The notes below the pieces were generated by a model, which was not told the origin of the DNA, searched no databases, and worked only from the letters and a program-made list of their open reading frames with translations. Shown piece after piece: positions 5,470-31,853 of a DNA stretch of 34,325 bases; position 1 is the first letter of the stretch; each line of letters starts with the position of its first letter. The translations under genes and the position numbers were made by a program. This DNA comes from an uncultured Chlorobiaceae bacterium (lineage in GTDB: Bacteria; Bacteroidota; Chlorobiia; Chlorobiales; Chlorobiaceae), in assembly GCA_903871235.1 (NCBI GenBank), contig CAIQGA010000078.1, positions 1-34,325 on the forward strand. Direction: 5' to 3'.

Positions 5470-5580
5470 AAAAAAAATGTTTGTTGAATGAGTGGCCACG
5501 AGAAAAATAATGGTTTTAACATGTAACCAATATGTTTGGAAAAAGCAAATATTTTTTATAAAATGGCAAGCTAATTCAAT

Positions 5581-6314
5581 ATGCACTTGTTCAACAGGAA
5601 ACGGGAAAAAAACGTATCATTATTGCTCTTGACGGGCCGGCAGCATCCGGAAAAAGTACTACAGCACGGAGAGTAGCCGAGCGACTTGGTTATACTTATA
5701 TCGACACCGGTGCCATGTACCGGAGCGTGACCCTCAAGGCCCTCCAGCAGGGCGCCATGGATAGTTTGCGCCATTCCCCCGAAACTGTTTCCGGTTTGCT
5801 TCGCGATATTGCCATACATTTTGATGGTGACCATGTTTTTCTTGATGGCCGTGATGTTACTGCCGAAATCAGGGAGAACCGGGTAAGCCGTGAGGTCAGT
5901 TTTATCAGTTCACTCAAGCCGGTGCGTGACAGGCTCAGGGAGATGCAGCAGGAGCTTGGTCGCAAGGGGTGCGTTGTCATGGATGGACGTGATATCGGCA
6001 CCGTTGTCTTCCCCGATGCTGAACTGAAAATTTTTCTTGTGGCCGATGCCCGCGAAAGGGCCAAACGGCGTTATGCAGAACTGCTGGCCAAGTCTCATGA
6101 CGGCATTGAGTTACCGACTCTTGATATTCTTGAAGAGGAGATAAAAAGTCGGGATCGCGATGATGCCGAGCGAAAACATGCTCCTTTGAAAAAACATGCT
6201 GACGCATACGAAATTGATACAACCAGTTTGACGATAGAGCGCCAGGTCGATATTGTTTGTGACCTTGCGCGGAAAACAGAAATCCGTGGTCGGCTGATTG
6301 ACTCCGGAATGTAG
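5581..6314 (+). CDS. cmk: Cytidylate kinase, apparent frameshift or unusual start at 5'-end
   Basis: It phosphorylates CMP and dCMP with ATP. The P-loop [11 protein letters not shown], the DTGAMYRS motif, [16 protein letters not shown] and the RDRDD lid region identify the family. The frame encoding the P-loop runs from a TAA at 5559 and has no ATG, GTG or TTG before the ATG at 5715, which lies after the P-loop and cannot be the real start. The ATG at 5581 is one frame away. Adding one A to the A7 run at 5606-5612 would join it to the kinase frame, giving an N-terminus [20 protein letters not shown]. Alternatives are an ATT start at 5574, slippage on the A-run, or a sequence error. It lies 94 bases before rpsA on the same strand, an arrangement also found in E. 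coli. Confidence 0.85.
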
Positions 6315-18519: not shown

Positions 18520-18672
18520 AAAAATTATAAATTCACATTCTGTTCGAGTTGTAATGCATGTTATGCGTAAAAGTTACTGTGGTGCAGGTGTGCATCGCTG
18601 GGTATGTGGCAGTGGCTTCTGTGTGGCGCATGAGTGGTAGATGCCTTTTGATTTTATAACAATAGATTTAAA

Positions 18673-18678
18673 AAGGAG
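18673..18678 (+). promoter_or_regulatory. Ribosome-binding site of petC
   Basis: AAGGAG lies about 10 bases before the ATG at 18689 and decides that start over the in-frame ATG at 18641. Confidence 0.65.
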
Positions 18679-18688
18679 ACAGGTTGTA

Positions 18689-19235
18689 ATGGCACAACAA
18701 GGTAATTTCAAGAGCCCGTCAAGACTGGGTGAACTTGGACATGGTGTTTCACTCTCTTCCGCTGGCACGGTTTCCGAGGGTAAGCCTCGTGCTCAGGGGT
18801 TGAAAGATGTTGATTTTGAACGTCGCAGTTTTCTTGTCAAGATTGTGGGGGGAATCGGTGCAGCAGTCGCCATATCGACTATTTATCCGGTGATTAAATA
18901 TATTGTCCCACCCGTCAAACAGTTTTCAAACCTCAATGAGCAGGTTGTCGGAAAAGCCTCCGACGTTCCTGAAAACAGCGGAAAAATTTTCCAGTTCAAC
19001 AAAGACAAGGTGATCGTCATCAACGATAACGGTCAGCTCACGGCATGCAGTGCAGTTTGTACGCACCTCGGCTGTCTTGTGCATTGGGATAATGCCCAGA
19101 ACCTTATCTCTTGCCCCTGTCATGGAGCAAAATACAAACAGACAGGAGAGATTATCTCCGGTCCTCAGCCTTTTACCTTTGCCCTCCTTTAAAGCAAGGG
19201 TTGAAGGGGAAGATCTCATTATTGCAAAAGCTTAA
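18689..19235 (+). CDS. petC: Rieske iron-sulfur protein of the cytochrome bc complex, with apparent C-terminal frameshift
   Basis: It carries electrons from quinol at the Qo site to a c-type cytochrome. After a soluble N-terminus, FERRSFLVK leads into one membrane anchor (about 50-72). The Rieske box I CTHLGC has C124 and H126, and box II CPCHG has C142 and H145; C129 and C144 would form the disulfide. As read, the frame stops at 19192 (167 residues) just after GPQP. The following bases in another frame encode PLPSFKARVEGEDLIIAKA and stop at 19235, exactly the expected end of the domain. Removing one T from the TTTT at 19171-19174 restores a full protein of about 181 residues. It could be a sequence error or a real lesion. 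petB follows 35 bases later. Confidence 0.9.
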
Positions 19236-19270
19236 CCTTTAATTCTTGAAAACCAAGGGAGTCAGGAAAG

Positions 19271-30874: not shown

Positions 30875-30939
30875 TTTCTCCCTCCTTGATCCGGTTTTTT
30901 ATCCTTTCTGTCAGTAAATCTACCACTTTAATTCATTTT

Positions 30940-30968
30940 CTGTATCAAGATGTGCCACCTTAATACAG
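30940..30968. repeat. Inverted repeat in the pseudogene-arsR spacer
   Basis: CTGTATCAAG (30940-30949) is inverted as CTTAATACAG (30959-30968) with a 9-base spacer and one mismatch in ten. There is no T-tract, so it is more like a binding site or the end of a lost element than a terminator. Confidence 0.5.
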
Positions 30969-31069
30969 ATCAAAGTTTTTTTACTTCAAAAGAGTCGTGA
31001 GAGAGTTGCCTTTCAGAATCGTCACTCTGTGCGGTAACTCGTACTATTTTTTTGTTTGTTTTCTTGTTA

Positions 31070-31085
31070 ATCGTATATTTGCGAT
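31070..31085 (+). promoter_or_regulatory. Candidate ArsR operator
   Basis: An imperfect 16-base palindrome, ATCGTATATTTGCGAT, lies 26 bases before the arsR start. The outer ATCG/CGAT arms are perfect. Autoregulation from such a site is typical of ArsR-family genes; the assignment is inferred. Confidence 0.4.
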
Positions 31086-31111
31086 GAACTATTGAAAAAG
31101 AGGGGCTTGTT

Positions 31112-31447
31112 ATGAGGAGAACGTTGTCGGCGGTTGAGTACAGTGGCGATGAGGAGGGGATGGCGTCGATTGCCAAGGCGATCAGTCATCCGGTGAGAAT
31201 AAGGATTTTGAAGCTGCTTGCCAGTCAGCAGTGTTGCTTCACGGGGGAGTTGACGGAGATTATTCCCATGGCGCAGTCTACAATTTCGCAACATCTCAAG
31301 GCGTTGCTTGATTCCGGGCTGATTCAGGGTGAAATTAACCCTCCAAAAGTTCGTTACTGCATTCATCGTGAAAACTGGCTGAAAGCCCATTCGATGTTTG
31401 GTGGTTTTTTTCACGCCGATCTGGCCTGCCGTTACGATTGCCATTGA
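31112..31447 (+). CDS. arsR: ArsR-family transcriptional regulator
   Basis: This 111-residue winged-helix repressor has the pattern HPVRIRILKLL, then a recognition helix MAQSTISQHLKALLDSGLI and a wing GEINPPKVRYCIHREN. Cysteines that could sense arsenite or another metal(loid) are C41-C42 in the helix before the recognition helix, C83 in the wing, and C106 and C110 at the C-terminus; the classic ELCVCDL site is absent. A purine-rich ribosome-binding site (AAAGAGGGG) precedes the ATG. It heads an operon-like run of five genes whose later members are arsC and ACR3, so arsenic is the likely signal. Confidence 0.9.
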   Translation: MRRTLSAVEYSGDEEGMASIAKAISHPVRIRILKLLASQQCCFTGELTEIIPMAQSTISQHLKALLDSGLIQGEINPPKVRYCIHRENWLKAHSMFGGFFHADLACRYDCH

Positions 31448-31550
31448 ACTATGCTCAACGTCCGACTGAAGCAGGGTGGTAAGAGGGTGCAAGCCCTGGA
31501 AATTTTTTTACAATGAGTCATCTTTAGAGAAACTGATAAACGATACAACA

Positions 31551-31853
31551 ATGAAAAAAGTAAAAATTCTTGGCAGTGGCTGTGCAACATGCAATCAGCT
31601 TGTCGATGCGGTAAAAGCAGTTATTGCCGCCGAAGGTATTAACGCTTCAGTTGAAAAAGTGGAGGATATTCAGCAGATCATGGCCTATAACGTCATCTCA
31701 ACCCCGGCGCTCGTTGTCGATGAGCGTGTGCTCTGCAAAGGACGTGTTCCCTCTCGTGAAGAGATTAAGGAGATGTTGATGGCAAAGCCACAGGGGTGCT
31801 GTGGATCTCATGGTACAAAATCGTCGGGTGGTGGTTCAGGATGCTGTTGTTAA
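31551..31853 (+). CDS. Small thioredoxin-like redox protein with Cys-rich tail
   Basis: A 100-residue thioredoxin-fold protein of the 'redox-active disulfide protein 2' kind. The active site CATC (C11, C14) follows KVKILGSG, and the cis-Pro motif reads STPALVVD. The fold ends near residue 80, after which comes a tail with C83-C84 and C98-C100 separated by a Gly/Ser/His linker, which looks able to bind metal or metalloid. The open frame extends upstream, but the ATG at 31551 gives the family N-terminus. Placed between arsR and the permease, it may reduce ArsC or deliver thiol-bound arsenic; this is inference. Confidence 0.85.
   Translation: MKKVKILGSGCATCNQLVDAVKAVIAAEGINASVEKVEDIQQIMAYNVISTPALVVDERVLCKGRVPSREEIKEMLMAKPQGCCGSHGTKSSGGGSGCCC

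Follow-up and report, generated by a model that had tools for sequence, protein, structure and literature searches.

The petC gene for the Rieske iron–sulfur protein is frame-broken in the window (the whole stretch of 34,325 nucleotides analysed here, contig C78 of the genome) at a TTTT run that lies just before its conserved ending. The gene is present in a single copy, its break is found in none of the relatives examined, and such breaks are rare in the sampled genome. Apart from a short T run that is one base too long, petC here is a normal, constrained Chlorobium gene. Most likely this represents no new kind of system, and is either an isolated sequence error or a very young mutation. Of these two, we consider that an isolated artefact is probably the cause.

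Structure of the interrupted petC gene

The features of the petC region, all on the plus strand, are as follows.
18689..19192, plus strand: petC (Rieske iron–sulfur protein) open frame, truncated, 167 aa (sequence and profile search; relatives' conserved start MAQQGNFK)
19171..19174, plus strand: TTTT run, TTT in close relatives (sequence, comparison with relatives)
19173..19235, plus strand: out-of-frame petC remainder LPLPSFKARVEGEDLIIAKA, stop at 19233–19235 (translation, tblastn)
19187..19192, plus strand: CTT TAA, premature stop (sequence; compared with prfB of L267 and with the site described in excerpts of PMC12421855)
19271..20461, plus strand: petB (cytochrome b), intact, 94% identity to G023 (sequence; sole PF13631 match in the genome)

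In translation, the petC frame opens with the ATG at 18689, passes through ...CPCHGAKYKQTGEIISGPQPFTFALL and ends at the TAA at 19190–19192, whereas the frame of 19089 (+1) runs through ...PLPSFKARVEGEDLIIAKA to the TAA at 19233–19235. What is left of the protein comprises the N-terminal part, the two boxes that bind the cluster and the GPQP loop, after which come FTFALL and the stop. In the closest relatives the sequence is CAGCCTTTACC, where the run has three T. When the petC protein of G023, the closest genome in the comparison set, was used as a tblastn query, the match fell into two parts, 18641–19171 in frame 2 (94% identity) and 19173–19232 in frame 3 (95% identity); the split lies exactly at the T run, and chance is therefore excluded. 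A sequence-only reading had proposed that petC is frameshifted at TTTT before its conserved ending, and the translations and the tblastn split bear this out. The ending that it expected directly after the stop in another frame was found at 19173–19235, and the one-base difference that it placed in the T run is that between TTT in the closest relatives and TTTT here. Its count of 23 residues past box II needs correction, as 21 residues follow CPCHG.

The gene in related genomes

The sequence-only reading had also called for a comparison with related petC genes. We compared 94 related loci, L003–L031 from one collection and L032–L096 from named records; the collections overlap, so that these are not 94 independent genomes. 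In 92 of the 94 loci petC is in frame to its stop. Counted from where box II begins, 91 loci reach this stop after 40 residues, and so does L080, which has the variant box II CPCHS for CPCHG. The frame of L047 stays open as far as the edge of its contig. L096 covers no more than the first 36 residues of petC and lacks the break region. Thus, the frame break is absent from all relatives examined that hold the region. No petC relative was found in viral contigs.

In 64 relatives the surroundings of petC were compared gene by gene (669 comparisons, 734 kb), and three splits were flagged, none of which was judged real by position. One split, flagged twice, is in a plus-strand frame of G023 (30880–31566) that is antisense to a minus-strand gene, and another, flagged once, is in an N-terminal extension of an FtsH-like frame in L053; both were dropped by position only.

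Rieske domain and operon context

petC belongs to a Rieske/cytochrome b operon of the Chlorobium type, in which it encodes the Rieske protein. The truncated product matches PF00355 with 58.1 bits over residues 84–161, and its sequence contains both CTHLGC and CPCHG, the cluster-binding box motifs of Rieske proteins. For the N-terminal membrane anchor, the profile PF25471 (TM_PetC) gives 28.1 bits against a curated cut-off of 37.1. As for the Rieske/cytochrome b complex of green sulfur bacteria, the petC gene is followed by petB.

The solved soluble Rieske domain of Chlorobaculum tepidum (8hn2) is matched by the truncated product with E 1.3e-37, and is also the first-ranked Foldseek hit (62% identity) when the intact G023 protein is searched by fold. 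This fold was modelled for the intact G023 protein from a 12-sequence alignment and is confident from about residue 80 on; a helix at residues 54–72 lies within the low-confidence part. In the model the Rieske domain ends in two beta strands, residues 166–172 and 175–180, both of which are past the break. Intact relatives align with 8hn2 up to their own last residue, whereas the product of the window, because of one extra base, lacks these two C-terminal strands and hence a complete domain.

Copy number and electron transfer in the genome

The genome, which is closely related to named records of Chlorobium and Chlorobiaceae, comprises 3.30 Mb in 234 contigs, with 99.95% completeness and 3.96% contamination. 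At the DNA level petC matches one stretch only of its own genome, and at the protein level it matches itself and, with 36% identity, part of a 644-residue frame. Neither search detected a second petC copy or an alternative TTT allele in the assembly. Four Rieske-domain loci exist in all, and the single cytochrome b match (PF13631) is on C78. A further Rieske-domain protein, in a 185-residue frame, is located at C96:14947–15192, on a contig other than that of the lone PF13631 match.

According to passages of PMC11269200 and PMC11108878, the Rieske cluster of green sulfur bacteria reoxidises the menaquinol formed in sulfide oxidation, and the thiosulfate route enters separately; an excerpt of PMC8125076 reports soxB in 14% of Chlorobium mOTUs only. 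In the nearly complete genome studied here soxB was not found, the candidate list being empty, at a cut-off that no genome, the control row included, passed. Because soxB was not found and only one cytochrome b is present, menaquinol oxidation through the Rieske/cytochrome b complex should matter in this organism. A dispensable petC is therefore less likely, as far as the sulfur route is considered, other electron donors being possible.

Constraint and the possible age of a lesion

Before the break, petC differs from that of G023 at 45 of the 480 bases and at 11 of the 160 residues, with dN 0.033, dS 0.376 and dN/dS about 0.09, so this portion looks constrained, as expected of a coding sequence under purifying selection. 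The window matches all but two of the 70 near-invariant columns, and both exceptions are within the shifted end. From about 12 nonsynonymous changes (both branches), about 365 nonsynonymous sites and half of the dS of 0.376 per branch, a real insertion would have arisen, by rough estimate, within about the last sixth of the terminal branch. A long-standing lesion is implausible, because petC is whole in the relatives, purifying selection is evident, the near-invariant columns are kept, two strands are lost, and soxB was not found beside a single cytochrome b. The extra base is either absent from the organism or very recent in origin.

Frame-break census of the assembly

For the census, 798 kb of the genome (31 kb masked) were compared with 1.36 Mb of the relative G003. 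The 210 genes matched (232 kb) contained two frame splits, and petC alone was left after inspection. The other split, in C23 near 5475, was rejected, since the gene's own ATG follows the apparent break and the G003 query is an over-extended frame. In the reverse direction 211 genes of G003 gave three splits, all of which proved on inspection to be over-extended or spurious frames. Internal stops were flagged 19 times in the genome and 30 times in G003, many of them close to the N-terminus or within short frames; the conclusion of the census covers frame breaks only, in-frame nonsense lesions lying outside its claim.

The matched coding sequence holds 3,993 homopolymer runs of at least 4 bases, 518 of at least 6 and 51 of at least 8, and no frame break besides that of petC held up on inspection in the 210 genes. 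A homopolymer-prone platform is therefore not visible, a platform-wide homopolymer error is not supported, and the petC break is isolated. The earlier argument that the break is an error is weakened by this isolation, though the question is not settled by it. The sequence-only reading favoured error on the grounds of two homopolymer differences in core genes; error is still the likeliest cause, but the reason given for it fails.

Artefact or recent mutation

The smallest of 54 sampled contigs has 1,678 bases, which fits a 1,500-base binning cut-off such as that in the methods excerpt of PMC8125076 (Illumina NovaSeq reads, MEGAHIT, MetaBAT -m 1500), and the assembly thus looks like a metagenome bin, that is, a MAG-like draft. 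The extra T is probably an isolated artefact of this draft, arising in base calling, in assembly or through a minor allele, rather than a mutation. If so, the organism would make an ordinary Rieske protein that passes electrons from menaquinol to cytochrome c, and a truncated Rieske protein would be attributed to the species in error by automatic annotation. Single-base frameshift artefacts and pseudogenes in draft bacterial genomes likewise show a one-base homopolymer indel with the rest of the gene intact, but the present case is isolated, without a second that held up on inspection in the 210-gene sample. This isolation counts against an artefact, as an error-prone assembly should show other breaks among so many runs; T4 is also short for a homopolymer error, and the assembly has no alternative TTT copy.

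The same clean record of the sampled genome, in which no assembly-specific error rate is evident, speaks for a real, very recent +1 insertion in the strain or population, resulting in a null mutation. Mutation by slippage is nothing unusual in a short run of T. The Rieske protein left by such an insertion would have 167 residues, would lack the two final beta strands and would probably be unstable, and the menaquinol:cytochrome c step would probably be impaired or lost. On the other hand, petC is whole in every examined relative that holds the region, the constraint before the break and the age bound confine the event to a short time, and no second petC-like gene or soxB was found. We therefore regard a real insertion as possible, though less likely than an artefact. 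If it is real, a green sulfur bacterium in which soxB was not found has a damaged menaquinol:cytochrome c step, which offers a test of the dispensability of the complex.

Comparison with the prfB frameshift site

A third explanation is that ribosomes slip by +1 at CTT-TAA (19187–19192), as in prfB, and yield a full-length Rieske protein. As at the programmed +1 frameshift site of prfB, CTT is right before the stop and coding continues at +1; slipping at CTT T|AAA would lead exactly into the conserved frame and leave the length unchanged, and the product would differ in six residues only (FTFALL for LPLPSF). The prfB gene of the same genome has a canonical slip site, GGGGGTATCTTTGAC, after ...RRLEQLRGY (L267, about 1505–1520, C200), so its ribosomes are expected to be capable of such a slip. 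However, according to excerpts of PMC12421855, the prfB site combines CTTT and TGA with AGGGGG placed three bases upstream and with a C after the stop, and shifting declines when any of these elements is altered. The stimulator in the prfB of this genome is GGGGGTAT, whereas petC has TTTGCCCTC upstream of CTT, with no AGGGGG or other SD-like purine run. petC has CTTT in common with the prfB site, but its stop is TAA rather than TGA and is followed by A rather than C, and the arrangement is conserved in none of the relatives examined. A hairpin is predicted over 19175–19270, but it is weak evidence (z −1.89), and 10 of 200 shuffled sequences fold equally well. Recoding by a prfB-like slip is accordingly very improbable. 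It is just as hard to credit that TTTT is real and fixed in the population and that petC still functions because ribosomes slip by +1 without a stimulator, in which case recoding would have been caught soon after the mutation. An isolated artefact is still the reading that we prefer.

Low G+C contigs

Two contigs, C70 (L245) and C10 (L102), have G+C contents of 0.364 and 0.398, respectively, which are low compared with most of the sample. They are possibly mobile elements or contamination.

The start of cmk

The cmk gene had been put forward as the second core gene with a homopolymer difference. We rejected this candidate, because the stretch AACAGGAAACGGGAAAAAAACGTATCATTATTGC is identical in the window and G023, the surroundings of its A7 are identical in G023 and G033, and the cmk frame continues through it. 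What is missing instead is a canonical start; in the window (5560–5720, plus strand) there is no in-frame ATG, GTG or TTG between the upstream stop and the P-loop. Thirty cmk loci were fetched, one of which was not matched by the motif, and a canonical start codon is missing in 10 of the 29 readable loci, the window being counted. The others are L158, L159, L160, L162, L163, L167, L168, L169 and L171; L159 has CTG as its sole candidate start.

In the clade of the window, translation might alternatively begin at an upstream ATG and enter cmk by shifting −1 at A AAA AAC. However, L167 and L171, which are without this heptamer, have no cmk start codon either. In the start-less loci that we read by eye, GGGA or AGGA lies about 8–9 bases 5' of ATC/ATT ATT ATT, a pattern which suggests that cmk in such loci may start at a non-AUG codon (AUC or AUU).
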